From the NCBI RefSeq assembly GCF_008274785.1, contig NZ_VTPU01000012.1:1-64000 (forward strand): 64,000 nt of DNA, in the 5' to 3' direction. This stretch comes from Halomonas eurihalina (lineage in GTDB: Bacteria > Pseudomonadota > Gammaproteobacteria > Pseudomonadales > Halomonadaceae). The position numbers were made by a program, and so were the translations under genes. The notes beneath the pieces were generated by a model that saw only the letters and a program-made list of their open reading frames with translations, searched no databases and was not told where the DNA came from. Below, piece by piece: positions 47,457 through 63,121 of the stretch; positions within the stretch are counted from its first letter, which is position 1, and each line of letters starts with the position of its first letter.

Positions 47457-47690
47457 CCCGGCTGCGCCGGGAGCGGTAAACCGTAAGTTGGAAGAACGCC
47501 CGGACGTTGTCCGGGCGGGAAGTCTGAAGAACGCGGCTTCGCCGCTGGAAGCAACTCAGCTGCGAGATACGGGAAACGAGCCACGAAAATCAACCCCGGC
47601 TCCGAACGACTCGTTGCTCGCCGCTCGTATCTCGTGTCCCGCCGCTCGTATGCTTTCCTCTTCGAGCTTCGAGCCCCCAACCTTGCTACC
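47457..47690. repeat. Hairpin-rich intergenic repeat region
   Basis: About 230 bases after fpr made of short dyads: CCCGG-CTGCG-CCGGG (47457-47471, possible fpr terminator), a 9-bp stem CGCCCGGAC/GTCCGGGCG (47497-47517), GCGGC-TTC-GCCGC (47533-47545), an inverted CGAGATACG/CGTATCTCG pair, and CGCCGCTCGTAT twice as a direct repeat near the 3' end. No gene is seen. The style resembles dispersed extragenic repeats. Confidence 0.5.
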
Positions 47691-48509
47691 ATGTCTCTCC
47701 TTCATGTTCCCGGTCAGGACGTTGCCGTGTTGACGCTGCTTGCCGAGCGTGTCTCGCGACATCTCGAGCGCTCCCCCAAGTCTCCCAAGTATCTGTGCAT
47801 GCGTGATGCGCTCATCGAGCTGATCGTCGAAGGGCAGTTGCGCGAGGGCACTCGCTTGCCCACCGAACAGGCGCTGGCCGAGGCACTTCCCCTTAGCCTG
47901 GGTACGGTACAGAAGGCGCTGCGGGATCTGGTGGAGAGCGGCGAACTGTATCGGCGTCGTCGTCTGGGGACCTTCGTCGCCGCGGGCGATCATCGGCGCG
48001 AGATCACCACGCCGGCCTTCCGCTTTCTGCGTCCCGATGGTTCTCGGGTACGCATGGTCTTCATCCGACTGATGAAGCGGGAACGGGTCGGAGCGGAGCG
48101 GCCCGGAGGGTGGAGCGAAGCGCTCGGCCACTGCGAAGCGGGCTATGTTCGCCTGGTGCGTCAGGATCGTATCGATGGCGCCTTCGACTGCCACACCGAG
48201 ATCTATCTACGTGCGGACCAGGCCGAGGCCCTGCTTGAGGCGCCGGTCGAGGCATTCGAGCACGAAAGCGTCCTGCCCCTGTTGCAGGCACGTACTCGTA
48301 TGGTCGTCGACCATGCCGACAATCGAGTGCGCCTGGTGCGCCTGCCCCGAGCCGTGGCCAGGGCTATCGCACCCGATGCGGAGCAGCCGGCATCCGGCCT
48401 GCGGCTCGAAACCTTCTATTGCCATCAGGACGGCACGGTCGTCGCCTGGCAAGTCATGCACATTCCCGCCAACGATTACTCTCTCTCGCTGCATACTGAA
48501 TTGCGCTAA
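47691..48509 (+). CDS. GntR/UTRA-family transcriptional regulator
   Basis: A 272-residue HutC-type regulator: winged HTH about residues 25-95 (LREGTRLPTEQALAEALPLSLGTVQKAL split by function) and a UTRA effector domain about 100-270. It lies upstream, in the same direction, of the Rieske oxygenase operon, whose promoter carries a 16-bp palindrome at 48692-48707. It probably controls this operon, with a small-molecule effector. Start at the ATG at 47691 (MSLLHVPGQ) rather than the frame start at 47634, which lies in the repeat region. Confidence 0.88.
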   Translation: MSLLHVPGQDVAVLTLLAERVSRHLERSPKSPKYLCMRDALIELIVEGQLREGTRLPTEQALAEALPLSLGTVQKALRDLVESGELYRRRRLGTFVAAGDHRREITTPAFRFLRPDGSRVRMVFIRLMKRERVGAERPGGWSEALGHCEAGYVRLVRQDRIDGAFDCHTEIYLRADQAEALLEAPVEAFEHESVLPLLQARTRMVVDHADNRVRLVRLPRAVARAIAPDAEQPASGLRLETFYCHQDGTVVAWQVMHIPANDYSLSLHTELR

Positions 48510-48691: not shown

Positions 48692-48707
48692 AATACTATA
48701 TAGTATT
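48692..48707. promoter_or_regulatory. 16-bp perfect palindrome, probable GntR operator
   Basis: AATACTATATAGTATT is its own reverse complement and overlaps the first two bases of the TTGACA (-35) element at 48706. Its position fits repression by the GntR/UTRA protein encoded just upstream. Confidence 0.6.
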
Positions 48708-48778
48708 GACATGCGCGGCAGTGCTCCTATACTGCCGCCAAGGATCATATAAAAAACAAAGTTCCATAATTGATGCAT
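48706..48778 (+). promoter_or_regulatory. Promoter and 35-bp regulon block of the Rieske oxygenase operon
   Basis: TTGACA (48706-48711), 16 bp, then TATACT (48728-48733). The 35-bp block 48744-48778 begins where transcription should start. It matches 28 of 35 bases with 52739-52773 and shares the frame ATCA...ATAA...AAA...TTGAT/ATGAT...CAT with 58677-58711. The inverted ATCA...TGAT ends resemble a long dyad for a dimeric or tetrameric IclR protein. Confidence 0.75.
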
Positions 48779-48812
48779 GCAGCTCATGCATCCGACCGAT
48801 GAGGACTACGTC

Positions 48813-49130
48813 ATGAGTTGGACGACCGTCTGCAAGACCGCCCAGGTGCAGGAAGATTTCCCGTATTCCGCCAAGCTCGATGGCAAGGAAGTCGGCGTGT
48901 ACGTGCTGGATGGCGAATATTACGCCCTCGAGGATGTCTGCCCTCACGCCTATGCGCTGTTGTCCCAGGGGTTCGTCGAGGACGGGCAGGTCGAATGCCC
49001 CCTGCACGAGGCGACCTTCGATATCCGGACCGGGAAGTGCCTTCGTGAGCCGGCCGACCGTGACCTGCATGTCTATCCGGTCCGCATCATCGACGATCAG
49101 ATACAACTCCAAGTCAGCGAGGAGCACTGA
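48813..49130 (+). CDS. Rieske-type [2Fe-2S] ferredoxin
   Basis: A 105-residue Rieske ferredoxin with ligands Cys43, His45, Cys62 and His65 (CPHAYALLS, ECPLHEATFD). It carries electrons from the reductase at 51.3 kb to the oxygenase at 49.5 kb. Start at the ATG at 48813 (MSWTTV), behind GAGGA; the longer frame begins at 48777 inside the regulon block. First gene of the operon ferredoxin/small protein/oxygenase/SDR/reductase. Confidence 0.92.
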   Translation: MSWTTVCKTAQVQEDFPYSAKLDGKEVGVYVLDGEYYALEDVCPHAYALLSQGFVEDGQVECPLHEATFDIRTGKCLREPADRDLHVYPVRIIDDQIQLQVSEEH

Positions 49131-49133
49131 GCC

Positions 49134-49439
49134 ATGGCCCAGCAGGATTACAACCCCCAGTTGAAGAACTGGCAGCGCATCATTCCGTCCAGCGAGCCCG
49201 ATCAGGGATACATCGAAGCGCCGGGAGACTTTGCCAACCCGGTGTGGCAGACCCGGCCGAGTGCGCCGGGGCCATTCGAGCTGGCGCTGGTGGATGCCCT
49301 GGAAGTGGTCTTCGCCGATGGCGTCACCGAGCTGGATGCCCTGGTCGAAGGCCTTAATGCCCGCCAGTGCCATGATCGCCAAGGGCATCCCTGGACCCAG
49401 GAGAGCTTTCTCCAGGAAATGGCGATCCTGGGCCAGTAA
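49134..49439 (+). CDS. Small protein with recombinase-linker-like C-terminal half
   Basis: A 101-residue protein, no signal peptide. The C-terminal half (about residues 50-100: ALVDALEVVFADGVTELDAL then LNARQCHDRQGHPWTQESF) resembles the LNARG...G.PWT region found in the linker/HTH domain of large serine recombinases, but there is no catalytic domain. From memory, similar stand-alone proteins are annotated beside ring-hydroxylating oxygenases. It starts four bases after the ferredoxin stop. The role is unknown: assembly factor, oxygenase subunit-like partner or regulator are possibilities. Confidence 0.75.
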   Translation: MAQQDYNPQLKNWQRIIPSSEPDQGYIEAPGDFANPVWQTRPSAPGPFELALVDALEVVFADGVTELDALVEGLNARQCHDRQGHPWTQESFLQEMAILGQ

Positions 49440-49488
49440 TCCCCTTCACGCCACGCCTGTCAGTACACAATCAATAACGAGGTCGATC

Positions 49489-50514
49489 ATGACTAGTGCA
49501 TCTACCGACGCCGTGCAGGACTATCTGGACAGCGGCCTGCGTTCGCTGTGGTATCCCGTTGCCGCCAGCTGGGAAGTGGGCAGCCACCCTCTGGGAATCA
49601 CCCGGCTGGGCGAGAACCTGGTGTTGTGGCGCGGCTACGACGGCACCCTGCATGCCATCGAGGATCGCTGCCCCCACCGTGGCGCTCGCCTCTCCAAGGG
49701 CTGGAATCTGGGCGACCGTCTGGCCTGTTGGTATCACGGTGTTGAAGTCAATGGTGCGGGCGAGGTCTGCGACGTGCCGGCGATCAGCAACAGCCCCCTG
49801 GTCGGGCAACCCTGCGTGCGCCGCTATCATGTGCAGGAAGCTCAGGGCGCCATCTTCGTCTACTTTGGTGTCACTCCCGACGAGGCGCCCGGCGAGCTGG
49901 AATTGCCGGAGCAACTGACCGATGGCGAGACATACGGCCACTTCCTGTGCACCGCGACCTGGAAGTGCAATTACCAGTATGCCATCGACAATGTCATGGA
50001 CCCCATGCATGGCACCTACCTGCATGCCGATTCCCACTCCATGGCGGATGGTGATCGTCAGGCCGAGATGGAGCTCGAGCCCACCCCGAGCGGTTTCATC
50101 TTCAAGAAGACGGGGCAGGCCGGGGTCAACTTCGACTGGGTGGAATACGGCAACACCGGTGTCATGTGGTTGCGCCTTTCGATCCCCTATCAGCAGCGCT
50201 TCGGACCGGGCGGTCCCTTCTGGATCGTGGGCATGGCCGTGCCCGAGGACAAGGAGAACACCCGGGTTTTCTTCTGGCGGATCCGCAAGGCGGACGGTTG
50301 GCAACGCCAAGTGTGGCGTTTCTTCTATCGCACCAAGCTGGAAGGACTGCACTGGGACGTGCTCGAGCAGGATCGTGTCATTCTCGAAAATCTCGCGCCG
50401 GACGCCCGCCATCACGAGAACCTCTATCAGCATGACGTGGGCCTTTCCCGGTTGCGGCGTGTGATGCTCAAGGCAGCCAAGAAGCAGCTGGCCGAGCGCC
50501 AGCAGGCGGCCTGA
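49489..50514 (+). CDS. Rieske non-heme iron oxygenase, catalytic subunit
   Basis: A 341-residue ring-hydroxylating or demethylating oxygenase. Rieske ligands Cys61, His63, Cys80, His83 (CPHRGARLS, CWYHG) and the mononuclear iron triad region with Asp171, His174 and His179 (NVMDPMHGTYLH) are intact. The short length and motif spacing are like vanillate demethylase/phthalate-type oxygenases that work with a reductase and ferredoxin. ATG at 49489 follows the small-protein stop by 49 bases; the frame is open to 49231 but overlaps the previous gene. Substrate unknown; probably an aromatic or N-heteroaromatic compound. Confidence 0.93.
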   Translation: MTSASTDAVQDYLDSGLRSLWYPVAASWEVGSHPLGITRLGENLVLWRGYDGTLHAIEDRCPHRGARLSKGWNLGDRLACWYHGVEVNGAGEVCDVPAISNSPLVGQPCVRRYHVQEAQGAIFVYFGVTPDEAPGELELPEQLTDGETYGHFLCTATWKCNYQYAIDNVMDPMHGTYLHADSHSMADGDRQAEMELEPTPSGFIFKKTGQAGVNFDWVEYGNTGVMWLRLSIPYQQRFGPGGPFWIVGMAVPEDKENTRVFFWRIRKADGWQRQVWRFFYRTKLEGLHWDVLEQDRVILENLAPDARHHENLYQHDVGLSRLRRVMLKAAKKQLAERQQAA

Positions 50515-50515
50515 G

Positions 50516-51271
50516 ATGACCGAGATGCTATCCGGCAAGCGCATCCTGGTGACCGGTGCCGCCCGCGGCCTGGGACGTAGCGTCGCCGAAGCCGCCGCCG
50601 CCGAAGGGGCGCGGTTGGTGATCAGCGATATCCTCGCCGACGAACTGCAAGCGACCGCCGAGGCGTTGCGCGCCCGGGGTGCCGAGGTGGAGGCCCTGAG
50701 CATCGACCAGGCCGACCCGGCCTCCATCGAGGCGGGCATGGCCAGGGTTGCCGGGGGTGGAGGCCTGGATGGCCTGGTCAATAATGCCGCCATTGCTACG
50801 GGTGTCGGCGGCGAGACCCTGATGGACTACGACGCGGACCTCTGGGACCGCGTCATGACGGTCAACGTGAAAGGGACCTGGCTGATGACACGGGCAGCGA
50901 TGCCATTGCTCGAGTCGGGAGATGGCGGCCGGATCGTCAATCTGGCCTCGGATACCGCCCTGTGGGGCGCTCCCAGGCTGATGGCCTACGTGGCCAGCAA
51001 GGGCGCGGTGATCTCCATGACGCGAGCCATGGCCCGCGAGCTCGGCGAGCGTGGTATCGGCGTCAATGCCGTGGCGCCGGGGCTGACCCACTGCGAGGCC
51101 ACCGAGTACGTGCCCCAGGAACGCTACGACTTCTATGCCCAGGGCCGAGCCCTGAAACGCGAACAGCAGCCCGACGACGTGGACGGCACCATTCTCTACC
51201 TGTTGTCGAACTGGTCGACCTTCGTTACCGGCCAGGTGATTCCCGTCAATGGCGGCTTCGTCTTCAACTGA
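50516..51271 (+). CDS. Short-chain dehydrogenase/reductase
   Basis: A 251-residue classical SDR. Cofactor motif TGAARGLGRSVAE (residues 13-25, TGxxxGxG), NNAAIATG near residue 88, catalytic Ser in NLASDTA, and YVASKGAV (YxxxK, about residues 158-165). It probably oxidises or reduces an alcohol or dihydrodiol made by the oxygenase. It begins one base after the oxygenase stop, indicating tight co-translation. Confidence 0.93.
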   Translation: MTEMLSGKRILVTGAARGLGRSVAEAAAAEGARLVISDILADELQATAEALRARGAEVEALSIDQADPASIEAGMARVAGGGGLDGLVNNAAIATGVGGETLMDYDADLWDRVMTVNVKGTWLMTRAAMPLLESGDGGRIVNLASDTALWGAPRLMAYVASKGAVISMTRAMARELGERGIGVNAVAPGLTHCEATEYVPQERYDFYAQGRALKREQQPDDVDGTILYLLSNWSTFVTGQVIPVNGGFVFN

Positions 51272-51283
51272 GGAGCGGCGAAC

Positions 51284-52489
51284 ATGACAGACGATATCCA
51301 GCGCATCGTGGTGATCGGTGGCGGTCAGGCCGGCGGACATGCCTGCAAGGCATTGCGGGGCGAGGGCTTCGCGGGAAGGCTGATGGTGGTCGCCGACGAA
51401 CCCCATGACTTCTACGAGCGGCCGCCGCTTTCCAAGGGCGTGGTGACCGACGACGCACCACTGCCCAGGTTATTCCCCGAGGACAGCCAGGCTGCCCTCG
51501 ACATCGAATGGCGGCGTCCGCGACATGCCGCCGCGATCGATCGCGACGCGCGCGAGGTAGTGCTCGATGATGGCGAGAGCCTTCCCTATGACCGTCTCTT
51601 GATCGCCACGGGCAGCCGCCCCCGCATGCCGGTACCCGAGTGGGCCGAGATCGGCAATGTCATGACCCTGCGGACCTGGGACGATGCCTCCCGGCTCAGG
51701 AAACAGCTTGAGCAGAGCCGTCGCATCGGCATCATCGGCGGTGGCTGGATCGGTCTCGAGGTGGCCTCCAGTGCCCGCAAGTTGGGCGTCGAGGTGGATG
51801 TCTTCGAGCGTGCCCCGGCGCTGTGCGGTCGCAGCGTGGGTGCCGAGGTGGCGGAAGCGATCCGTGAGCTCCACGAGCGTAACGGTGTGGGCCTGGCGCT
51901 TGAGCGACAGGATACCCGGCTCGACGAGCAGGTCGACGGCCGGGTGGCGATCACGGCTGACGGCGAGGCCCGTGAGCCCTACGACCTGGTCGTGGTCGGC
52001 GTCGGTGTCGAGATCAACCGGGAGCTGGCGAGCGAGGCGGGGCTCGAGATCGGCCAGGGCATCGTGGTCGACGCTGCGGGGCGTACCTCGGACCCGCGAA
52101 TCTTCGCCGCCGGCGATGTCGCCCAGCATCCTCACCTGGGGCTCTGCCTGCAGTCCTGGGCCTATGCCCAGAACCAGGCCTGCGTGGTGGCCGATGCCAT
52201 GCTCGGCAAGGACGCGCATTACGATGAGCCGGCCTGGCTGTGGTCGGACCAGCACGGCGTCAATATCCAGATTCTCGGGGTGCCGGGAGGGCAGGTGCGG
52301 TGCGTGGAGCGTCGGGATGCTCAGGGAACGGTATTCTTTTATCTGGATGGCGAGCAGCGGCTGGCCCAGATGGTGGCATTCGATCAGCCGCGCGCCATCA
52401 AGCTCGGCAAGCGCTGGCTGGCCGCCGGGCGGGTCCTCGATCCGGAGGCGCTGGGAGATCCCGAGTACAACCTGATGCAATTACGTTGA
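51284..52489 (+). CDS. FAD-dependent ferredoxin reductase
   Basis: A 401-residue pyridine-nucleotide reductase of the rhodocoxin/putidaredoxin reductase type. FAD motif IVVIGGGQAGGHACKAL (about residues 6-22), NAD motif IGIIGGGWIGLEVASSA (about 147-163), FAAGDVAQHPH near 272. It passes NADH electrons to the operon's Rieske ferredoxin. A 12-base gap follows the SDR gene. The operon therefore encodes a complete three-component oxygenase. Confidence 0.93.
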   Translation: MTDDIQRIVVIGGGQAGGHACKALRGEGFAGRLMVVADEPHDFYERPPLSKGVVTDDAPLPRLFPEDSQAALDIEWRRPRHAAAIDRDAREVVLDDGESLPYDRLLIATGSRPRMPVPEWAEIGNVMTLRTWDDASRLRKQLEQSRRIGIIGGGWIGLEVASSARKLGVEVDVFERAPALCGRSVGAEVAEAIRELHERNGVGLALERQDTRLDEQVDGRVAITADGEAREPYDLVVVGVGVEINRELASEAGLEIGQGIVVDAAGRTSDPRIFAAGDVAQHPHLGLCLQSWAYAQNQACVVADAMLGKDAHYDEPAWLWSDQHGVNIQILGVPGGQVRCVERRDAQGTVFFYLDGEQRLAQMVAFDQPRAIKLGKRWLAAGRVLDPEALGDPEYNLMQLR

Positions 52490-52702
52490 AAACGGACGAG
52501 CCACATTGATCGTCGCGGGAGTTGCGGCTCCCGCCATCTCGCTCCTGGCCAACTACCGTGCCTCATCCACCCGACTGGCGTGCCGGTCATGGGCCAGCAT
52601 CCTTCGCTTCTGTCACCTTGCCGAGCCAGCCTTGTCGACGGCCCCGCATCCGTCGGTATGCCGGCAGAATTACCGAGCCTCATGCGCATCGATAACCGCT
52701 GT
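52490..52702. other. Intergenic region behind the oxygenase operon
   Basis: Between the reductase and the next promoter. It has a hairpin GCGGGAG-TTGCGG-CTCCCGC (52515-52534) that could end the oxygenase transcript (no U-run). Two related short strings, TACCGTGCCTCAT and TACCGAGCCTCAT, occur at 52556 and 52673; no gene is seen. Confidence 0.45.
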
Positions 52703-52773
52703 TTGACAACGTGGGTGCAGCGACTTATCTTTGCCTTAATCAAATAATAAACAAAGTTTCAAATATGATCCAT
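52703..52773 (+). promoter_or_regulatory. Promoter and 35-bp regulon block of the hydroxylase/TRAP operon
   Basis: TTGACA (52703-52708), exactly 17 bp, then TATCTT (52726-52731). The 35-bp block 52739-52773 sits at the predicted transcription start. It matches 31 of 35 bases with 58677-58711 and 28 of 35 with 48744-48778. Binding here would occlude transcription initiation, so repression is the simplest model. Confidence 0.82.
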
Positions 52774-52803
52774 CAGCCCGCAGTCGTGGGCAGGAACAAG
52801 AAT

Positions 52804-53931
52804 ATGACAAAGCTGAAAATCGGAATATGTGGTGGTGGTATCGGTGGGCTGTGCGCGGCGTTGGCGTTGCGTCGGCAGGGCCATGAGGCCGTCGTCTTCG
52901 AGCGCGCCAAACAATTTCTGCGCATCGGTGCCGACGTTAACCTCACTCCCAATGCCGTACGCGCCCTGGATCGTCTGGGTGTCGGCGAGGTCCTGCGCGA
53001 GACGGCGGCGCGTCCCACCCATCGCATCAGTCGCACCTGGGACACCGGGGAGGAGACCTCGCGTCTGCCCATGAGCGAGGCCGCCGAGCAGCGCTATGGT
53101 GCGCCGCAACTGACGATCCATCGGGGCGACTTGCTCACGGCCCTCGAGGCGTCGCTTCCGCAGGAGGCCATTCGCCTGGGCAAGCAGGCCGAGCGCATCG
53201 AAGATGGCGAGCCGATGCGCATTCACTTCGCCGATGGCAGCCACGAGGACGTCGACCTGGTGGTCGGCGGCGACGGTATTCACTCGGCTGTGCGTCGCGA
53301 GCTGTTCGGTGCGGATCGGCCCGAGTTCACTGGCCTGGTGTCCTATCGCGCGGTGGTGCCACGTAGCGCCGTGCCCGAGGTCGAGAACCTGGATGCTTTC
53401 ACCAAGTGGTGGGGACCGACGCCCGACGTCCAGGTCGTGGTCTTCCCCCTGACGCGCGGCGAAGAGGTTTTCGTCTTCGCGACCACCCCTCAGGACGACT
53501 GGCGCGATGAATCCTGGACGTTGCCCGGCGACGTCGAGGAACTGAGAGAAGTCTACAAGGACTTTCATCCCAATGTTCGCGCCCTGCTGGCGGCCTGTGA
53601 CAGCGTGACCAAGTCGGCGCTCTACGTGCGGGAACCCATGTCGCGCTGGTCGGTTGGGCACGCCACCCTGCTCGGCGATGCGGCTCATCCGATGGTGCCC
53701 TTCATGGCCCAGGGGGCCTGCATGGCGATCGAGGATGCCGTGGTGCTGTCGCGCTGCCTGGAAGGTGTCGGTCGCGATGACCTGACGTTGGCCCTGGAGC
53801 GCTATGAGCAGGCCAGGAAAGAGCGTACCGCTCAGGTACAGCGAGGCTCGCGCGCCAATGACTGGCTCAAGGGCGAAGGCAATGCCGACTGGGTCTATGG
53901 CTATGATGCCTGGGGCCTGGAACTGCCCTGA
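52804..53931 (+). CDS. FAD-dependent aromatic hydroxylase, NicC/salicylate hydroxylase-like
   Basis: A 375-residue single-component flavin monooxygenase. FAD motif IGICGGGIGGLCAALALRRQ at residues 5-24, the DG motif GGDGIHSAVRREL (about 158-170), and GDAAHPMVPFMAQGACMAIE (about 297-316). The last third, including NDWLKGEGNADWVYGYD, closely resembles 6-hydroxynicotinate 3-monooxygenase (NicC), from memory of that sequence. An ATG at 52765 lies inside the operator block and has no ribosome site; the ATG at 52804 follows AGGAA. It begins the operon with the TRAP transporter and sulfatase. Confidence 0.9.
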   Translation: MTKLKIGICGGGIGGLCAALALRRQGHEAVVFERAKQFLRIGADVNLTPNAVRALDRLGVGEVLRETAARPTHRISRTWDTGEETSRLPMSEAAEQRYGAPQLTIHRGDLLTALEASLPQEAIRLGKQAERIEDGEPMRIHFADGSHEDVDLVVGGDGIHSAVRRELFGADRPEFTGLVSYRAVVPRSAVPEVENLDAFTKWWGPTPDVQVVVFPLTRGEEVFVFATTPQDDWRDESWTLPGDVEELREVYKDFHPNVRALLAACDSVTKSALYVREPMSRWSVGHATLLGDAAHPMVPFMAQGACMAIEDAVVLSRCLEGVGRDDLTLALERYEQARKERTAQVQRGSRANDWLKGEGNADWVYGYDAWGLELP

Positions 53932-53988
53932 TATCGCCCGGGCACCGACTCATCGAACTCAATAACAACACCCGAGGAAAGACCGACC

Positions 53989-54966
53989 ATGACCAAGCAG
54001 CTCCTGTTCAAGTCCCTGTTGAGCCTGTCGTTGATCGGGGCGGCCACGGTCGCTCACGCCGAGGAGGTAACGCTCAACGCCGTTTCCTTCACGCCCAAGA
54101 CGGCGGTGGTGTCCCACGGTTTCAAAGAATTCGTCACGGCCATCAACGAGAAGTTCGATGGTGAGCTCGAGATCAACTGGCGCGGTGGCCCCGAGGTGAT
54201 GCCGCCTTTCCGGTTGGCCGATGCCGTGCGCAATGGCTCCATCGACATGGCGCTGACCAGTCCCAGCTACTATTCCGGGCTCGTGCCGTCGGCCACGGCG
54301 TCCAACCTTTCCTTCAAGACCTATGAGGAAATCGCCGAAACCGACTACCTGGAGCGCATGACCCAGGTGCATGCCGAGCGTGGCCTGCATTTGCTCGGCG
54401 AGATTCCGGCCAGCCCGGTGAAGTTCTTCCTGTTCTTCAAGGATGAGGTGACCGGCCTCGACGACCTGGAAGGCAAGCGCATTCGTGTCTTCCCGACCAT
54501 CCTGCCGTTCGTGGAATCCCTGGGCGCCGAACCCTTGGTGATGCCCATGGGCGAGATCTACACCGCCATGGAGCGGGGTGTCATCGATGGCTTCGCCCAG
54601 AGCAACCTGGGTTGGGTCGACCAGTTCGAGGACGTGGTCAACTACTACATCACGCCCCCCTACTATCGCGCCGGCTTCAGCGTGCTGGTCAATCCGGATG
54701 CCTGGAGCGAACTGCCCGAGGAACTGCGCGGCCGGGTGCAAACCTATCTGCGCGAGGAATTGGCGTCGGAGATCGATCAGAGCTGGGACGAGATCATCGC
54801 TACCGGCTACCAGCAGATGGAAGACGCCGGGTTCCAGGAGGTCAAGCTGACCGGGGACGCTGCCGACGAGTACCTGAATACCGCGATCGAGGCCGCCTGG
54901 CAGCATCTCGCCGAAGATGTCGACCCTGAGCTGCATGCCGAACTCAAGGCGATGCTCGTCGACTGA
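53989..54966 (+). CDS. dctP: TRAP transporter substrate-binding protein (DctP type)
   Basis: A 325-residue periplasmic protein with a signal peptide (about residues 1-24, ending ATVAHAEE). It has the DctP fold, with GGPEVMPPFRLADAVRNGSIDMA (about residues 67-89) and KRIRVFPTILPFVESLGAEPLVM (conserved Arg for carboxylate substrates). It captures the substrate for the DctQM permease encoded next. Carboxylate-containing aromatic substrates are plausible. Confidence 0.92.
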   Translation: MTKQLLFKSLLSLSLIGAATVAHAEEVTLNAVSFTPKTAVVSHGFKEFVTAINEKFDGELEINWRGGPEVMPPFRLADAVRNGSIDMALTSPSYYSGLVPSATASNLSFKTYEEIAETDYLERMTQVHAERGLHLLGEIPASPVKFFLFFKDEVTGLDDLEGKRIRVFPTILPFVESLGAEPLVMPMGEIYTAMERGVIDGFAQSNLGWVDQFEDVVNYYITPPYYRAGFSVLVNPDAWSELPEELRGRVQTYLREELASEIDQSWDEIIATGYQQMEDAGFQEVKLTGDAADEYLNTAIEAAWQHLAEDVDPELHAELKAMLVD

Positions 54967-55030
54967 AATGTGACCCGATGCCGGTGCCGGTCGTGGCGCC
55001 GGTATCCATCCACTTCCCGGGGCTTTCGCT

Positions 55031-55543
55031 ATGGATGATTCCCTCACCGTCGAGCACGCGACGTCCAACGCCTTCATGCGTGGCGTCAGTCGACTCAACC
55101 TGTGGCTGGCCTGGTTCAGTGGCCTGGTGCTGGTGCTCGCCACCGGGCTGGTATTCCTGGAAATCCTGTCGCGGCTGATCTTCGATCGTTCGCTGGTCTG
55201 GGTCGTCGAGCTCAGCGAGTATGCGCTGCTCTACATGACCTTTCTCGGCGCGCCCTACCTGCTCGAAAAGCATCGGCATGTGGCCATCGACCTGGTGACC
55301 GAAGCCCTGCCCGAGTGGCCGCGGCGCCTGCTGGTCGCGGCCATGAGCGCGCTGGCCGCGGTGGCCTGCGGCTACTGCGCCTGGGTAGGCGGGCTGGTGA
55401 CGCTCGACCAGCTCGAGCACGGGATGCGCGAAACCACACTGATGCGCCCGCCGAGCTACCTGATCACCCTGGTCTTTCCCCTCGGCATGCTGCTGCTCGC
55501 GATCCAGTTCGTGGCGCAGACTTTCGACAGTTTCAAGCGCTGA
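55031..55543 (+). CDS. dctQ: TRAP transporter small permease (DctQ type)
   Basis: A 170-residue membrane protein with four hydrophobic helices (about residues 24-46, 60-80, 98-118, 137-157), standard for DctQ. It has RLIFDRSLVWVVELSEYALLYMTFLG around TM2. Forms the inner-membrane complex with DctM. Lies 64 bases after the binding protein and before DctM. Confidence 0.88.
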   Translation: MDDSLTVEHATSNAFMRGVSRLNLWLAWFSGLVLVLATGLVFLEILSRLIFDRSLVWVVELSEYALLYMTFLGAPYLLEKHRHVAIDLVTEALPEWPRRLLVAAMSALAAVACGYCAWVGGLVTLDQLEHGMRETTLMRPPSYLITLVFPLGMLLLAIQFVAQTFDSFKR

Positions 55544-55586
55544 GCCCCGTCGGCTCGCGCAACAATAATCTCCTCTGGAGGCTGAT

Positions 55587-56903
55587 ATGGACTGGTGGCT
55601 GACGCTGCTCCTGCTCATGGGACCGCTCCTGCTACTGATGATGCTTGGCATGCCGGTGGCGTTCGCCTTCCTGGTTGTCAATCTGGTGGGCGCCTATGTG
55701 CTGCTGGGCGGCATGTCGGGCGTCGAGCAACTGGTGATCAACACCACCGGCGCGCTGACCAGTTTCACGCTGGTTCCCATTGCCATGTTCATGATCATGG
55801 GCGAGGTGATGTTCCGTTCGGGCATTGCCAATGACCTGCTGGACACGCTCGACAAGTGGTTCGGCAAGCTTCGTGGACGCCTGGCCTTCATGGCCGTGGG
55901 CGGCGGGGTGCTGTTTTCCACCCTGACCGGCAACAGCATGGGCTCCATCGCGCTGCTGGGCTCCAGCCTGGTGCCCGAGATGGAGAAGCGCGGTTACCAG
56001 AAGCCCATGTCGCTGGGGCCGATTCTTGGCTCTGCCGGCCTGGCGATCATGATTCCACCAAGCTCGCTGGCCGTCGTGCTGGGGGTCGTGGCCGAATTGC
56101 CGATCGGCCGGTTGCTGATTGCCATCATTCTGCCCGGCTTGCTGATGGCGGTGCTCTATACCATCTACATCCTCGGTCGCTGCACGCTGCAGCCGGAAGT
56201 GGCGCCATCCTTCGACGTCGCGCCCACGCCGATGCGGGTCAAACTCGAGGCCGGGGCACGCAACATCCTGCCCATCGGCATCATCGTCTTCGCCGTGGTC
56301 GGTGTGATCTTCCTGGGCCTGGCCACGCCCACCGAGGCGGCCGCCTCGGGCGCCGTGGCGACGGTGTTGCTGGCGCTGTTCAAGCGCCGCCTGAGCCTCG
56401 ATATCTTCAAGAGCTCGATGTTCGAAAGCGCCGCCATCTCGGTGATGGTGCTGTTGATCGTCGCCGGCGCCATCGCCTTTACCCAGCTGCTGTCCTTCAC
56501 CGGGGCGACCTTCGGCCTGATGGATGCCGTGCTCGGACTGCCCTTCGGCAACAAGACCATCGTGCTGGCCATGGTGCTGACTATCGTGGTGCTCGGCATG
56601 TTCATGGGGCCCTTGCCGATCATGATGATCACCCTGCCGATCTTCGTGCCGGTGGTGGAACAGTTCGGTTTCGACCCCCTGTGGTTCGCCGTCCTTTTCC
56701 TGATCGCCATCGAGACTGGCTCCACCTCGCCGCCGCTGGGTGCGGCGCTGTTCGTGATGAAGGCGGTGGCGCCCGAGGGCACGCGAATGGGCAGCATCTA
56801 CAAGTCGGCGTTGCCTTTCCTGGCCTGCGACTTCCTGGCCATCGGTATCGTTTTCGCCTTTCCCGAGATCGTCACCTGGCCGGTCGCCCTGATGTTCGAC
56901 TGA
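55587..56903 (+). CDS. dctM: TRAP transporter large permease (DctM type)
   Basis: A 438-residue permease with about twelve helices. Family features: LGMPVAFAFLVVNLVGAY, GEVMFRSGIANDLLDTLDKWFG, GNSMGSIALLGSSLVPEM, and the C-terminal GSTSPPLGAALFVMK. It uses the sodium gradient for uptake. Completes the DctPQM transporter between the FAD hydroxylase and the sulfatase, so substrate import and processing are co-expressed. Confidence 0.93.
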   Translation: MDWWLTLLLLMGPLLLLMMLGMPVAFAFLVVNLVGAYVLLGGMSGVEQLVINTTGALTSFTLVPIAMFMIMGEVMFRSGIANDLLDTLDKWFGKLRGRLAFMAVGGGVLFSTLTGNSMGSIALLGSSLVPEMEKRGYQKPMSLGPILGSAGLAIMIPPSSLAVVLGVVAELPIGRLLIAIILPGLLMAVLYTIYILGRCTLQPEVAPSFDVAPTPMRVKLEAGARNILPIGIIVFAVVGVIFLGLATPTEAAASGAVATVLLALFKRRLSLDIFKSSMFESAAISVMVLLIVAGAIAFTQLLSFTGATFGLMDAVLGLPFGNKTIVLAMVLTIVVLGMFMGPLPIMMITLPIFVPVVEQFGFDPLWFAVLFLIAIETGSTSPPLGAALFVMKAVAPEGTRMGSIYKSALPFLACDFLAIGIVFAFPEIVTWPVALMFD

Positions 56904-56960
56904 GTGTTCGATTGAGCCGGTGCCCGGCGAGCGACGCCGGACATCCCTGAGGAAGCCATC

Positions 56961-58535
56961 ATGCGACGCCCGAATTTCGTCATCTTCGTCACCGACCAGC
57001 AGCGCGCCGAGCATCTGGGATGCTATGGGGATCCCACCGTGAGGACGCCTAACCTGGATGGCCTGGCCGCCGAAGGCGTGCGCTTCGAGCGTTTCCATGT
57101 CGCCACGCCAATCTGCCAGCCCAATCGGGCCTGTCTGGTCACCGGACAGCAACCCTCGGTCAACGGCGTCCGTCAGAACGGGATTCCGCTGGATCTGGAC
57201 AGCGTCACCTTCGCCGACGTGTTGCGCGATGCCGGCTACAACACCGGCTATATCGGCAAGGCCCACTTCCAGAACGTCACCGACATTGCGGCGCCCGAGC
57301 GTCGCCAGAAGGGGAAGGGAGAGTCCTTGCCCGACGCGCTGGGCCATAGCCTGCGCCGACAGCGAACGGGGGATGCCTATCGCTGGGAAGTACGCCGCCG
57401 CTGGGCGGATAATCCCGACCTGGAACTGCCGACCCCTTATTACGGCTTCGACCACGTGCGCCTGTGTATCGGCCATGGCGATCAGGTGGAGGGGCACTAT
57501 ACGGCCTGGCTGCGCGCGCGTCGGGGGGATTCCGAGAGTCTGCGCGGCCCGGAGAATGCCCTGCCGGATGCGGGCATCACGGCCCCGCAATGCTGGCGTA
57601 CGGCACTGCCGGAGGCCGATTATCCGACTCGTTATGTCGCCGAGCAGGCCTGCGATTTCCTCGAACAACAGCAGGCCGACACCCCCTTTGCGCTGGTGGT
57701 GTCCTTTCCCGACCCACATCATCCCTTCACGCCTCCGGGACGTTACTGGTCAATGTATGACCCCGACGATGTCGTGTTGCCTCCCAATGCCGGCGAGTCC
57801 GTCGCAGGGATTCCCGGGCTGCCCGCCTCGGCGCTGACGGCCTATCGCTGGGGCCTGGACGAGCCGGACAGCCATTGGCCGCTGACGCTTTCCGAGCGGC
57901 AGATCCGGGAAATCATCGCCCTCAACTACGGCAGCATCAGCATGATCGATGACGCCGTGGGCGAGGTGATGACACGCCTTGAGGCGTTGGGGCTGAACGA
58001 CGATACCGTGGTGGCCTTCACGTCCGACCATGGCGATTACATGGGCGATCACGGCACCGTGCTCAAGCTCGGCCTGCACTTCCAGAGTGTCGTGCGCGTG
58101 CCCTTGATCTGGCGCGACCCGCATGCTCCCGGGGCGGGCGGGTGCGTGTCCCGTCGCCTGGGCAGCGCCATCGATCTGGCTCCGACCCTGCTGCAGCGGG
58201 CCGGTCTGCGTATTCCGATCGGCATGCAGGGGCGTGATCTCTTCGATGGAGCGCCCGCCGACCCGGTGCTCATCGAGGATGCTGGTATCGAGGTGTTTCG
58301 CGATGGCGATGCGGGGCGTGGCATCACCACCCTGGTGACGGATGAGTGGCGGCTCAGCCTTTTCGAAGGTGCGCCGGGCGGTGAGCTCTATCACCTGGCC
58401 GAGGATCCGCATGAGACGCGCAATCTCTGGGAGGATCCGGACAGCCAGTCGCGCAAGGCGAGCCTGCTCGAGTGCCTGGTTCGACGCATGGCCGAGCTGC
58501 GTGACAAGCGCCTTTCGGCATCGGCCAGAGCCTGA
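56961..58535 (+). CDS. Type I sulfatase (CxPxR), cytoplasmic
   Basis: A 524-residue arylsulfatase-superfamily enzyme. The formylglycine site is CQPNRACLVTG with Cys52, Pro54, Arg56 (CxPxR). Metal-site Asp residues are in FVIFVTDQQRA and in FTSDHGDYMGDHG; HHPFTPPG is present. There is no signal peptide, so it acts in the cytoplasm on an imported sulfate (or possibly phosphonate or phosphate) ester. It needs a formylglycine-generating enzyme, none of which is in the window. It follows DctM by 57 bases. Alternative: a phosphonate monoester hydrolase of the same superfamily. Confidence 0.88.
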   Translation: MRRPNFVIFVTDQQRAEHLGCYGDPTVRTPNLDGLAAEGVRFERFHVATPICQPNRACLVTGQQPSVNGVRQNGIPLDLDSVTFADVLRDAGYNTGYIGKAHFQNVTDIAAPERRQKGKGESLPDALGHSLRRQRTGDAYRWEVRRRWADNPDLELPTPYYGFDHVRLCIGHGDQVEGHYTAWLRARRGDSESLRGPENALPDAGITAPQCWRTALPEADYPTRYVAEQACDFLEQQQADTPFALVVSFPDPHHPFTPPGRYWSMYDPDDVVLPPNAGESVAGIPGLPASALTAYRWGLDEPDSHWPLTLSERQIREIIALNYGSISMIDDAVGEVMTRLEALGLNDDTVVAFTSDHGDYMGDHGTVLKLGLHFQSVVRVPLIWRDPHAPGAGGCVSRRLGSAIDLAPTLLQRAGLRIPIGMQGRDLFDGAPADPVLIEDAGIEVFRDGDAGRGITTLVTDEWRLSLFEGAPGGELYHLAEDPHETRNLWEDPDSQSRKASLLECLVRRMAELRDKRLSASARA

Positions 58536-58639
58536 CGTGCGGACCGCCGATTCGAGGCGTGCCAGTAAGCATTGAGACGCCATATATTTTCTTTTAATTC
58601 AGGTAGTTACTGGTTGTTCCGACAGCCCGGAAACGTGCC
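58536..58639. other. Gap between the sulfatase and the iclR promoter
   Basis: First part of a 311-base gene-free interval. It contains an AT-rich stretch (CATATATTTTCTTTTAATTC, about 58580-58600) but no recognisable gene or strong terminator; the iclR promoter and regulon block follow. Confidence 0.4.
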
Positions 58640-58711
58640 TTGACAAAGCAGGCATCGACGGCTATTTTTGAGTTGTATCAAATAAGAAATATGGTTTCAA
58701 ATATGATCCAT
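58640..58711 (+). promoter_or_regulatory. Promoter and 35-bp regulon block of the IclR gene
   Basis: TTGACA (58640-58645), exactly 17 bp, then TATTTT (58663-58668). The 35-bp block 58677-58711 sits at the start site and matches 31 of 35 bases with the block before the hydroxylase operon. It points to autoregulation of iclR and, as the downstream genes run in the same direction, to control of the second catabolic operon as well. Confidence 0.82.
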
Positions 58712-58846: not shown

Positions 58847-59659
58847 ATGAACGATAGTGAAAAGGATGCACGCAAATACATGATTCCGGGCCTGGAGCGC
58901 GGTTTGATCATCCTGATGGAGCTGAGTCGCAACCATCGGGAGATGAGCTTCGCCGAGATCGTCAAGCGCGTCGATATTCCCAAGGCAACGGCCTATCGTG
59001 CGATCCAGACCCTCGAGTACATGGGGTTCATTCGGCGCCATCCCTCTACCGGCCTGTATACGCTCGGCGTCAACGTGCTGCGCCTGGGTTTCGAGTATGT
59101 CGCGTCCCTGGATGTCGTCCAGGTCGGCCAGCCGGTGATCGAGTCGCTGCGGGACCAGACCGGCTGTTCGAGTCACATCGCCATTCGCGATGGACGCGAT
59201 GTCATCTACGTGGCCAGGGTCAGTGCGGCCAACGCCACGATTCGGCGAGTCAGCGTCGGTACCCGGTTGCCGGTTCACCGTACCTCCCTGGGGAGGATGC
59301 TGCTGACCGGCCTGAGCCGTGAGGCATTCGAGGAGCTCTATCCCGAGGAGGCGCTGCCGGACAATGAGCCCGGCGCGCCGGCGGATCGGGAGGCGCTGTG
59401 GCAACTGGTCCAGGAGGATCGCCAGCGCGGCTATGTGATCGGGGAGTCCTTCTTCCAGTTCGGCATCTCCTCCATCGTCTATCCGCTGTTCAATCACGAC
59501 GGCGAGGTCGAAGGCGTGGTCAGCATCATGGTGCCGGTGCACGAGATCCCGGAAGGCGATCGCGAGCGCCTGCGTCACAGCGTCGCCGAAGCGGCCGACA
59601 ACATTTCGAATCTACTGGGATATCAGGGCCATCCCGGGGAGCGCAGTCAGATGACATGA
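58847..59659 (+). CDS. IclR-family regulator of the catabolic supercluster
   Basis: A 270-residue IclR protein: winged HTH about residues 13-75 (MSFAEIVKRVDIPKATAYRAIQ, split by helices) and effector domain about 90-260 (PVHRTSLGRMLLTGLS, GYVIGESFFQFGISS). Start at the ATG at 58847 (MNDSEKD) behind GAGG; the longer frame from 58799 has no ribosome site. It lies just behind a 35-bp block repeated before the two other catabolic operons and is the strongest candidate to bind it. Its ligand is probably the pathway substrate or a ring-cleavage intermediate. Confidence 0.9.
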   Translation: MNDSEKDARKYMIPGLERGLIILMELSRNHREMSFAEIVKRVDIPKATAYRAIQTLEYMGFIRRHPSTGLYTLGVNVLRLGFEYVASLDVVQVGQPVIESLRDQTGCSSHIAIRDGRDVIYVARVSAANATIRRVSVGTRLPVHRTSLGRMLLTGLSREAFEELYPEEALPDNEPGAPADREALWQLVQEDRQRGYVIGESFFQFGISSIVYPLFNHDGEVEGVVSIMVPVHEIPEGDRERLRHSVAEAADNISNLLGYQGHPGERSQMT

Positions 59660-59823: not shown

Positions 59824-60753
59824 ATGAGTATCGTGGGTATCGAAGCGCTGGAGTTCGGCGCCGAAGACATCGAGACCGGCAAGCGGTTCGCCGAGGATTT
59901 CGGCCTGACCTGCATCGAGGAAGGCGCCGAGGGGGCGACCTTCGAAGCGCTCAACGGCGCCCGCCTGGCGGTCCGTGGCATCGATGATCCGACGCTTCCC
60001 GAGGCGTTCGAGGCAGGTTCGACCCTGCGCCGCATGACCTGGGGCGTGGCGGGTGCCGAGGCGCTGGCGGCATTGCGTGAACGCCTGCGCGATCAGCCGG
60101 GCTTCGTCGACCATGGCGACAGCCTCGAGTGCCGCGACCCCAACGGCCTGGCCGTGCGCATTCAGCCCACCTCGCTGCGTGATGTGGAACTGGAAGTGAC
60201 GCCGATCAACCAATGGGGCGACATGCGTCGGGTCGACCAGCCGAGCCCGGTCTATGAACGCGCCACGCCGGCCAGCATCGGCCATGCGGTCTTCTTCGTC
60301 GACGACCTGGAGGCCAGTGAACACTTCTATCGTGACTTGCTGGGGTTCTCCGTCTCCGACCGCTATATCGATCGTGCCGTCTTCCTGCGCATGCAGGCGC
60401 GTGGCGGGCACCACAACCTCTTTCTCCTGAAGCTGCCGCATCGCGGTGCGGGGCTCAATCACGTGGCCTTCACGGTGCGCGACATCCATGAGGTGATCGG
60501 CGGTGGCCTGGCCATGAACCGGCGCCAGTGGAGCACCTTCATCGGCCCGGGGCGTCACCCGGTTTCCTCCGCCTACTTCTGGTACTTCAACAGCCCGCTG
60601 GGCGGCGCTTTCGAGTATTACACCAACGAAGACTATCTGACCGAGGCCTGGGAACCGAGAGAGATGCAGCACTCCCTGGAGTCCTTCACCGAATGGGCCA
60701 TCGAGGGGGGTATCGACGCCGATACCCGACGCCAGAAGAAGCCCGAAGCCTGA
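59824..60753 (+). CDS. Extradiol dioxygenase-like VOC-family protein
   Basis: A 309-residue two-domain vicinal-oxygen-chelate protein. The C-terminal domain has the complete 2-His-1-carboxylate set His154 (SIGHAVFFV), His213 (LNHVAFTV) and Glu264 (GAFEYYTNED), as in type I extradiol ring-cleavage dioxygenases such as catechol 2,3-dioxygenase. The N-terminal domain (residues 1-130) lacks the ligands. It could cleave a dihydroxylated ring formed upstream. AGGAGATCGAC precedes the ATG. First gene of the second catabolic operon, 164 bases after iclR. Confidence 0.9.
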   Translation: MSIVGIEALEFGAEDIETGKRFAEDFGLTCIEEGAEGATFEALNGARLAVRGIDDPTLPEAFEAGSTLRRMTWGVAGAEALAALRERLRDQPGFVDHGDSLECRDPNGLAVRIQPTSLRDVELEVTPINQWGDMRRVDQPSPVYERATPASIGHAVFFVDDLEASEHFYRDLLGFSVSDRYIDRAVFLRMQARGGHHNLFLLKLPHRGAGLNHVAFTVRDIHEVIGGGLAMNRRQWSTFIGPGRHPVSSAYFWYFNSPLGGAFEYYTNEDYLTEAWEPREMQHSLESFTEWAIEGGIDADTRRQKKPEA

Positions 60754-60928
60754 TTCCGGCCGGGCCATGACGGCCCGGCAGTCGACAGTCGAGAACCAGA
60801 GCCGATCGCCTGCGGGCGACCGGTCCGGGGAGCCTTTGTCCCGACGTTCGGCATGGAGCCGTCGGAGCGCATGCAAGAAGGCATCTTCCGGACACCGACG
60901 ACAACCGCACTACCCGAGGAGACATACC

Positions 60929-61450
60929 ATGTCCGCACAGTTCGAAACCTGGAAAAAACCCGACGATCTATCCTTCAACGACTGGATCGAGTCCCGCATC
61001 GCGCGCTTCAAGGGCCGCAAGTATGACTGGAACGCCCTGAAGTTCCAGGCCGATTACGATCCCAAGTATCGCCGCGCCCAGATGCGCTACATCGGTACCG
61101 GGGCCACCGGCGTGGCCAATGACACCAACACCATCCCGGCCGAGCACTTCACCTTCTCGACCATGGTGCTGCCCTCCAAGTGCGAGGGGCCGTTGCACGT
61201 GCATGACGACGTCGAGGAAGTGTTCTTCGTGCTCAAGGGCTCGATCCGCCTGTTCCTCAAGGATGGTGATCACTATACCGAGACCGTGCTCGAGGAGCGT
61301 GACGTGGTCTCCGTGCCGCCGGGCATCTATCGCGGCCTGCTCAACGAGAGCGAGGAAGAGGCGCTGATGTGCGTAATGCTGGGCACGCCCACGCCGCAGA
61401 TCCCGACCTACCCGGACGATCACCCGCTTTCCAAGGTCAAGCGCAACTGA
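60929..61450 (+). CDS. Single-domain cupin, putative dioxygenase or isomerase
   Basis: A 173-residue cupin. The metal motif is present in GPLHVHDDVEEVFFVLKG (about residues 87-104: H-x-H...E) and the second motif in VSVPPGIYRGLLNES, though the second motif's usual His is replaced near Y-R-G. It could be an accessory enzyme acting on a ring-cleavage product. ATG at 60929 follows GAGGAGAC; the frame upstream to 60767 has no support. Next gene follows by 14 bases. Confidence 0.85.
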   Translation: MSAQFETWKKPDDLSFNDWIESRIARFKGRKYDWNALKFQADYDPKYRRAQMRYIGTGATGVANDTNTIPAEHFTFSTMVLPSKCEGPLHVHDDVEEVFFVLKGSIRLFLKDGDHYTETVLEERDVVSVPPGIYRGLLNESEEEALMCVMLGTPTPQIPTYPDDHPLSKVKRN

Positions 61451-61464
61451 TGACGGAGGCGGCC

Positions 61465-62313
61465 ATGACACCCTGGGCGATGAACCCCAAGTGCCTGACG
61501 CTCGACACCGGCCCCCAGGCCTACCGCGAGAGTGGCGAGGGCGAGGCCATCGTGCTGCTGCATGGCATCAGCTCCGGCGCGGCGTCCTGGGAGCCGCTGG
61601 TGGCGCACCTGCCCGGTTATCGCCTGCTGGCCTGGGATGCCCCCGGTTATGGCGACAGCCAATCGTTGGCCGAGGCCGAACCCATGGCGGCCGACTATGC
61701 GGCGCGCCTCGATGCCTGGCTCGACGCCCTCGGCGTCGAACGCTGCGTGCTGGTCGGCCATTCGCTCGGGGCAATGATGGCCACTGCCTTGACGGCCCGC
61801 CGGCCCGGGCGACTGGCCGGGGTGGTGCTGGCCGACCCGGCGCTGGGGTATCGCGATGCCGATGATGCCAAGCGTGACGAGGTCTATCGCAGCCGCTGGA
61901 CTCTGCTGGCCGAGCAGGGCCACGACGCCTATGCCGAGGCGCGCGCACCACGCTTGCTGCGTGACGATGCCGACCCGGCCGATATCGACCGGGTGCGTGA
62001 GGGCATGCGTCGTCTTCATATCGAAGGGTTCGCCCAGGCGAGCTGGATGCTGGCCAACGACGATCTCGAGGGCTATGTGCCCGAGGGGCTGCCGGTGCCG
62101 GCCACGGTGCTGTGCGGTACCGAAGATGCCATCACCACCCCCGAATCATCACGCGACCTGGCCGAGCGCCTGGGGCTGAGCTATCACGCTATCCCGCGGG
62201 CCGGGCACGCCAGTTACATCGACGCCCCCGGCGCCTTTGCCGCGGCTGTCGATACCTTTGCCCGGCCCCTGCTGGCGCTATCCCCGGGGAACCGAAAGAG
62301 GACGACACCATGA
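61465..62313 (+). CDS. Alpha/beta hydrolase (meta-cleavage product hydrolase-like)
   Basis: A 282-residue alpha/beta hydrolase. Oxyanion region VLLHGISSGAASWEPL, nucleophile Ser100 in LVGHSLGAMMA, acid Asp in LCGTEDAITTP, and His in PRAGHASYIDAP. Related to hydrolases that split 2-hydroxy-6-oxo-dienoate ring-cleavage products, and to formyl-amide hydrolases such as NicD. Start at the ATG at 61465, five bases after GGAGG; a second ATG at 61450 overlaps the cupin stop. Its stop overlaps the next ATG (ATGA). Confidence 0.88.
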   Translation: MTPWAMNPKCLTLDTGPQAYRESGEGEAIVLLHGISSGAASWEPLVAHLPGYRLLAWDAPGYGDSQSLAEAEPMAADYAARLDAWLDALGVERCVLVGHSLGAMMATALTARRPGRLAGVVLADPALGYRDADDAKRDEVYRSRWTLLAEQGHDAYAEARAPRLLRDDADPADIDRVREGMRRLHIEGFAQASWMLANDDLEGYVPEGLPVPATVLCGTEDAITTPESSRDLAERLGLSYHAIPRAGHASYIDAPGAFAAAVDTFARPLLALSPGNRKRTTP

Positions 62314-63104: not shown

Positions 63105-63121
63105 CACGACGGAGTATCACC

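Follow-up and report, generated by a model that had tools for sequence, protein, structure and literature searches.

A 31-bp promoter element and a candidate IclR-family regulon for ring degradation in Halomonas eurihalina and related bacteria

What joins three separate operons of a putative ring-degradation cluster in Halomonas eurihalina, each with the same short block of DNA at its promoter, and which protein would act on that block? The cluster lies in a stretch of 64,000 nucleotides (nt; assembly GCF_008274785.1, contig NZ_VTPU01000012.1, positions 1 to 64,000), referred to here as the window. An earlier sequence-only reading had described promoters A, B and C with a common 35-bp block and had proposed that the IclR-family protein encoded behind promoter C represses all three. 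Computation in the current analysis established the sites, showed them to be unique in the genome and conserved in sequence and position, and linked them to the recognition helix of the regulator. The earlier reading had noted neither a second element at the Rieske promoter, tied to a GntR gene, nor the occurrence of the regulon in other genomes.

One element at three promoters

All three promoters combine TTGACA, a spacer of 16–17 bp and a TATnnT hexamer with the block, as had been claimed, and their hexamers are near consensus (Table 1). The block begins 10, 7 and 8 nt past the -10 of A, B and C, respectively. Its copies start at 48744, 52739 and 58677; recomputation gave the same identities as before for B and C (31/35) and for A and B (28/35), while A and C share 25/35 positions. 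The genes behind the promoters were also read correctly: a Rieske oxygenase operon, a hydroxylase/TRAP/sulfatase operon, and iclR followed by a dioxygenase operon. In the rest of the window, on both strands, the best 35-mer match to any block was at most 21/35 (the blocks' own inverted matches aside). Dinucleotide shuffles of the window (n = 60) reached 22/35 against block B, and shuffles of the three upstream regions (n = 200) reached 23/35 between any two, which bears out the claim that such conservation is unlikely by chance.

The inverted ATCA...TGAT ends noted in the sequence-only reading are real, but they are the ends of a 31-bp pseudo-palindrome and not of the 35-bp block, the last 4 bases of which fall outside. 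This symmetric unit has the form ATCA...AAAC/T-N3-GTT...TGAT, with centres at 48759, 52754 and 58692. A genome search, the check proposed earlier, returned exactly three matches in 3,843,950 bases with up to 3 mismatches, all of them at promoters A, B and C, and the reversed-pattern control gave none in the same genome.

The position of the site was compared among 107 promoters with a site score above 17 and a ferredoxin (67), a FAD hydroxylase (18), iclR (21) or a probable ferredoxin (1) as the next gene. The set leaves out ferredoxin sites more than 200 nt away; 14 of its promoters (13 ferredoxin, 1 iclR) come from stretches placed by gene maps or site matches. In 101 of the 107 the best -10 ends 6–13 nt before the site, so that transcription should start at or beside the first base of the site. 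Among 57 representative promoters (flanks less than 60% identical), the site holds 1.36 bits per column, compared with 0.16 upstream and 0.11 downstream; since every site in the promoter set was picked for its likeness to those of the window, this value marks where conservation ends and is not a proof of it. Between site and gene in the window, the best hexamer pair matches 5–7 of 12 positions, versus 10–11 for the promoters upstream. With the site at the expected start and no better hexamer pair behind it, the geometry points to repression rather than activation.

Distribution of the site and its regulator

IclR-family models span residues 22–278 of the 286-aa frame of the regulator, in line with a family of about 250 aa that has an N-terminal winged helix-turn-helix (HTH) and a C-terminal effector domain. 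Solved IclR-family relatives align over most of the protein, the best chain being named a pca-regulon regulator. The protein falls under the cut-off of all 8 NCBIfam models matched; the best of these, TIGR02431 (PcaR/PcaU/PobR), gives 153.6 bits against a cut-off of 284.75, which does not place it in that subfamily. Four other IclR-family matches occur in the same genome. A search with the window iclR DNA gave no match in E. coli genomes.

Within a sample of 90 genomes of the genus, the site was found in 17 and the IclR orthologue in 18, both being present in 17 and the site in none of the 72 genomes without the orthologue (one-sided Fisher test, 1.9e-17, kinship not corrected for). The genome with an orthologue but no site (G084) encodes a protein 70% identical to that of the window. 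The reversed pattern matched once each in 3 of the 90. Of 119 genomes sampled from the enteric family, 13 encode the orthologue, each with the site about 2.5 kb upstream of the gene.

Seventy-six IclR loci were fetched from public genomes by means of peptide words of the window IclR, the closest being that of Halomonas elongata (94%). The specificity residues were located in the helix PKATAYR by eye, from the TtgV residues given in Table 5 of PMC8222616. The helix PKAT[AV]YR is found in 68 loci, and 67 of them have the site; the remaining one, L093, lacks its promoter because the contig starts 24 bases ahead of the ferredoxin match. The eight loci with other helices (PQATSHR, PQSTTYR, PQSTSYR, PQSSSYR, PRSTVFR) have no site above the cut of 17, a candidate 16 bp before the HTH_62 gene of L107 scoring 16.9. 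Two of these eight, L107 and L108 (both Rhodospirillales), still carry related catabolic genes, and hence the site seems to follow the recognition helix rather than the enzymes, although the cases are few.

Near-copies turn up in Halomonas-type, Saccharospirillum, Natronospirillum and enteric loci when the search matrix is built from no more than the three window sites. In enteric loci that are complete (Klebsiella, Enterobacter, Serratia and others), the genes form a single run of ferredoxin, HTH_62 protein, oxygenase, short-chain dehydrogenase/reductase (SDR), IclR, VOC protein, reductase, cupin, hydrolase, SDR and aspartate-dehydrogenase-like protein, to which the annotated Klebsiella copy adds an MFS gene, an aldehyde dehydrogenase and a thiamine pyrophosphate (TPP) enzyme. 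Of 48 enteric loci, 47 have one site immediately before the ferredoxin. The genes of Halomonadaceae and Saccharospirillum loci are divided among several units, with a separate site before the ferredoxin, the hydroxylase and iclR. The site precedes iclR in 19 of the 20 loci L036–L055, and where the hydroxylase operon is missing (L041, L052, L116) the locus has two sites. In many split loci the ferredoxin promoter lay outside the first fetch; it was fetched for 13 genus genomes, mostly chosen by a site match there, and the site was present in all 13. It is still found before the ferredoxin where the Rieske operon lies about 15 kb from the hydroxylase operon (L131) or is inverted (L132). The number of sites thus tracks the number of operons, from three in the window genome to one before the single enteric run. 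The operator at the promoter of iclR itself (58677–58707) is what an autoregulated regulon predicts; the enteric iclR is an internal gene of the run that follows the single adjacent site.

Three enteric loci show a further, weaker site-like palindrome 214–319 nt upstream of the ferredoxin (L071, 7223; L088, 7222; L102, 7264), in a place where a related Klebsiella locus has a divergent MFS gene. For distant homologues (IclR 38–42% identical) no similar site is claimed: L107 has only the candidate just under the cut, none was found before the HTH_62 gene of L108, and Caballeronia L118 and Cupriavidus L119 gave weak matches.

A proposed repressor circuit and its alternatives

Based on these results, we consider it highly likely that the IclR protein represses the three promoters through the 31-bp operator, with a GntR protein as a lock on promoter A. 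Binding of IclR at all three sites is supported by the co-occurrence, the match between helix and site, the movement of the operator with its promoters on rearrangement, and the likeness to alternating-box operators of the family. The protein, probably as a dimer of dimers, would cover alternating half-sites between about +1 and +31 and keep RNA polymerase from initiating at, or escaping from, three promoters of the sigma-70 type. This would silence the operon of the Rieske oxygenase, that of the FAD hydroxylase, TRAP transporter and sulfatase, and iclR together with the ring-cleavage genes that follow. A metabolite of the pathway may free IclR, in which case uptake, sulfate removal, ring hydroxylation and ring cleavage would be induced together, and the repressor would cap its own level through operator C.

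The second lock would be the GntR/UTRA protein, for which we propose binding to the palindrome AATACTATATAGTATT over the -35 of the Rieske promoter, a proposal based on co-occurrence. The protein has both the GntR HTH and the UTRA domain, as in the GntR/HutC (UTRA) group. The palindrome has no other match in the genome within 2 mismatches and one more at 3. Among the 90 genus genomes, 15 have a GntR/UTRA orthologue, and all 15 have the palindrome beside the gene (up to 2 mismatches; perfect in 11). The pattern matches in 18 of the 90 overall: in G073, G021 and G024 the only match, with two mismatches, lies elsewhere; G088 contains an additional two-mismatch match; and in G023 a second perfect copy lies about 30 kb away (L138 4168, G023:C1:42167), about 25 bp before an ATG and with no cluster gene beside it. 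As many of the 90 genomes also match the reversed control, the two-mismatch pattern is weak alone, and the evidence is its position beside the GntR gene. That place is kept in GntR-bearing relatives, and all five Saccharospirillum and Natronospirillum genomes tested have both gene and palindrome (one mismatch). No GntR match was obtained in the three enteric and two Vreelandella-type genomes tested. In L124 (G063), the GntR match has two in-frame stops beside an intact palindrome.

Several observations weigh against repression by this IclR. The family includes activators too. Because of kinship among the genomes sampled, and because the cluster mostly travels whole, co-occurrence by itself does not distinguish IclR from some other factor linked to the cluster; furthermore, one search word for the 76 loci (QTLEYMGF) adjoins the recognition helix. 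In the enteric family, 24 of 106 genomes without the orthologue match the site pattern at two mismatches; 20 of them are 0.3–2.4 Mb in size, and many of these small genomes match the reversed control as well. Before iclR of H. halocynthiae L051, no site scores above the cut, and the sites are weak before the ferredoxin in L039, L054 and L055, the hydroxylase in L046 and iclR in L053. No site at 4 mismatches precedes the ferredoxin in L135 and L136, from the same two genomes as L054 and L055. In addition, the operator is lopsided: in most sites its left arm departs from symmetry at the same two positions (pair 8/22 reads A/A in 50 of the 56 distinct sites), for which nearness to the transcription start is the only account we can offer.

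Activation or dual regulation by IclR from the same sites, in the manner of PcaU and PobR, which are activators, appears improbable. The best NCBIfam model and the best solved chain lean towards such regulators, while the location of the site downstream of the best -10 and the near-consensus hexamers speak against it. Likewise, 46 of 47 enteric promoters leave 21–28 nt from the site to the ferredoxin match (73 nt in L110), with no room for a promoter behind; the window site starts near +1, as for a repressor. It is very unlikely that another protein, the GntR/UTRA regulator or an IclR paralogue, binds the 31-bp site. The four further IclR-family matches and the adjoining GntR gene provide candidates, but GntR pairs with a different palindrome, and the site is gained and lost with the recognition helix of this IclR. 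The three enteric genomes tested (E up to 1e-20) and H. halocynthiae G001 (E up to 1e-40) carry the site but gave no GntR orthologue, and on this distribution GntR was rejected as the binder of the 31-mer.

An element acting as RNA, in a 5' hairpin or leader, would stand at the start of the predicted transcripts and keep a constant orientation to the promoter, as is the case here. However, the arms pair poorly in the 56 distinct sites (8/22 in 9%, 9/21 in 30%, 0/30 in 32%, 4/26 in 39%) and the mean folding energy is -2.2 kcal/mol, which makes this hardly credible; the RNA reading was rejected on arms that are non-complementary in most distinct sites. We give next to no weight to the idea that AT-rich repeats in GC-rich surroundings are debris of mobile elements or a chance match, because no shuffle exceeded 23/35 and the site holds one position across families between unrelated flanks. 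A chance repeat was rejected on the shuffles, the window comparison and the genome uniqueness.

Gene content, further members and related systems

The features of the window are collected in Table 1. The best solved relatives of the Rieske oxygenase alpha subunit are the oxygenases of carbazole 1,9a-dioxygenase (1.2e-23), and the VOC dioxygenase is probably read through from promoter C. Just past the window lie an aldehyde dehydrogenase, a TPP enzyme and a porin, with a DctP protein on the opposite strand. Domain and literature searches named no substrate of the pathway. A PF20552 (HTH_62) protein is found between ferredoxin and oxygenase in nearly all complete clusters, and in database protein P0145 this domain is fused to the oxygenase. 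The 5' leader behind promoter A has an inverted repeat, GATGCATG-CAGCT-CATGCATC, at 48772–48792, sharing the last three bases of operator A.

Table 1. Genes, promoter hexamers and proposed operators in the window
Feature	Position	Strand	Remarks
GntR-family regulator with UTRA domain	47634..48509	+	Pfam GntR 8.9e-14, UTRA 2.1e-7; proposed second regulator of Rieske promoter
Perfect palindrome AATACTATATAGTATT	48692..48707	no strand	overlaps -35 of promoter A; proposed GntR operator
-35 TTGACA, promoter A	48706..48711	+	kept in relatives
-10 TATACT, promoter A	48728..48733	+	16-bp spacer; kept in relatives
Proposed IclR operator A	48744..48774	no strand	31-bp pseudo-palindrome
Rieske ferredoxin	48813..49130	+	PF00355 3.6e-22, scored on longer frame 48777-49130
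Small HTH_62 protein	49134..49439	+	PF20552 1.6e-25
Rieske oxygenase alpha subunit	49450..50514	+	PF00355 and VanA_C; start codon uncertain
SDR dehydrogenase	50516..51271	+	
Ferredoxin reductase	51284..52489	+	AndAa/HcaD-like, under those models' cut-offs
-35 TTGACA, promoter B	52703..52708	+	
-10 TATCTT, promoter B	52726..52731	+	17-bp spacer
Proposed IclR operator B	52739..52769	no strand	
FAD hydroxylase	52804..53931	+	3-hydroxybenzoate 6-monooxygenase-like, under that model's cut-off
TRAP solute-binding protein	53989..54966	+	TRAP_S1, above cut-off
TRAP small permease	55031..55543	+	single weak match, 4e-8
TRAP large permease	55587..56903	+	DctM 4.1e-78, slightly under cut-off
Sulfatase	56961..58535	+	PF00884 2.8e-47
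-35 TTGACA, promoter C	58640..58645	+	
-10 TATTTT, promoter C	58663..58668	+	17-bp spacer
Proposed IclR operator C	58677..58707	no strand	proposed autoregulatory
IclR-family regulator	58847..59659	+	recognition helix PKATAYR; PcaR/PcaU/PobR model 5.6e-45, under cut-off
VOC extradiol-type dioxygenase	59824..60753	+	
Cupin protein	60767..61450	+	
Alpha/beta hydrolase	61420..62313	+	start uncertain
Second SDR dehydrogenase	62250..63104	+	start uncertain
Aspartate-dehydrogenase-like protein	63101..63916	+	PF01958 5.8e-32; start uncertain

Additional sites occur in several relatives; in the genome of the window no extra site of this sort was found within 3 mismatches. Nine further stretches were fetched from enteric genomes with the orthologue, the remote matches in G147, G152 and G198 lying outside the fetch. 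Two of the nine (L143, L144) hold the ferredoxin site itself. In the other seven the site is remote and has TTGAC at roughly the spacing expected; the gene behind it encodes a porin-like protein (L139, L141, L146), a hormone-sensitive-lipase-type esterase (L140, L142, L147; under the model cut-off where scored) or an MFS transporter (L145). A weaker site precedes TctCBA in Billgrantia campisalis (L046), and a site precedes a TAXI-TRAP transporter in Natronospirillum (L053).

Regulators 69–75% identical to the window IclR are encoded without the cluster in L056–L060, L062 and L113. The regulator gene of L058 has as neighbours genes for urate oxidase, ureidoglycolate lyase, a gcl-like TPP enzyme and a glycerate-kinase-like (MOFRL) protein. 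There a palindrome, ATGGAAA-N3-TTTCCAT, abuts the -35 before the gcl-like enzyme, and it lies at like places in L056, L057, L059, L060 and L113. L062 has only a weaker match. In a tree of 37 rows from the 76 loci (L073 and L088 were removed, their matched range running past a stop), the six Vreelandella-type regulators form one clade (100/100), the placement of which relative to the rest is not settled. Whole-genome counts of the palindrome are 4–6 in each of six Vreelandella-type genomes, 2–5 in each of four Halomonas genomes with the PKATAYR helix, and 0–5 for the reversed control; because these counts are not specific, a switch in Vreelandella is kept as a speculative reading only.

Tentatively, and with more doubt than confidence, one may picture a single repressor and a single +1 operator uniting a modular regulon across families, each lineage having added its own uptake or deprotection operon by copying the operator. 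In Vreelandella, a regulator with an altered helix (PQ[AS][TS][ST][HY]R) may have shifted to urate/allantoin/glyoxylate genes, with the box ATGGAAA-N3-TTTCCAT replacing the AAAC-N3-GTTTCAT type. If so, TRAP plus sulfatase, TctCBA, TAXI-TRAP, the porin-like protein, MFS and esterase would be lineage-specific modules around a constant ring-degradation core, and the Vreelandella pair would be a natural specificity switch.

Overall, repression by IclR through the shared operator would gather enzymes of loose annotation into a single, defined regulon of halophiles and many Enterobacterales, and would tie the removal of sulfate esters to ring degradation in salt-loving bacteria. The operator may serve as a specific handle for finding more members (transporters, porins, esterases), and the pairing of helix and operator as a ready test of DNA choice by IclR-family proteins. 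Searches of an open literature library found no paper on this regulon, which the regulog table in the supplement of PMC8222616 may list; we take it to be a new regulon of a known kind.

The closest known systems are drawn here from PMC8222616. According to that survey, IclR-family proteins generally regulate themselves plus one or two adjacent operons, and the aromatic-acid regulons (PcaR, HmgR, MhpR, IphR, PbaR; Table 1 of the survey) likewise place such a regulator beside genes for ring hydroxylation and ring cleavage. Among the aromatic-acid regulons seen in the survey, none comes with the gene set found here (ferredoxin, HTH_62, Rieske oxygenase, SDR, VOC, cupin, hydrolase, aspartate-dehydrogenase-like protein, aldehyde dehydrogenase and TPP enzyme). 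The PcaU/PobR operator type is GTNCG-N5-6-CGNAC, whereas the window operator is AT-rich AAAC-N3-GTTTCATATATGAA. The group 1 consensus is longer by one base than the GTTTC..GAAAC pair seen here; compared with group 2 (TGRAACA-N1-2-TGTTYCA), the right arm is GTTTCA in most sites and the left arm is AAAC or AAAT without the preceding consensus T. The boxes of the window operator, AAAC / GTTTCAT / ATGAA, alternate in direction, as do those of the three-box or tandem sites of PcaU, PobR and HmgR; three boxes are listed for 32 groups of IclR-family sites, and the survey reports tandem sites and cites binding of tetramers in this family. Among the KdgR, IclR and AllR operators (Table 1 of the survey), the core AAAC-N3-GTTT resembles that of KdgR, RWWGAAACGNCGTTTCAKKA, both being AT-rich and near the gene start; the window site differs in its extra outer boxes, which extend it to 31 bp, in its asymmetric left arm and in the pathway that it would control.

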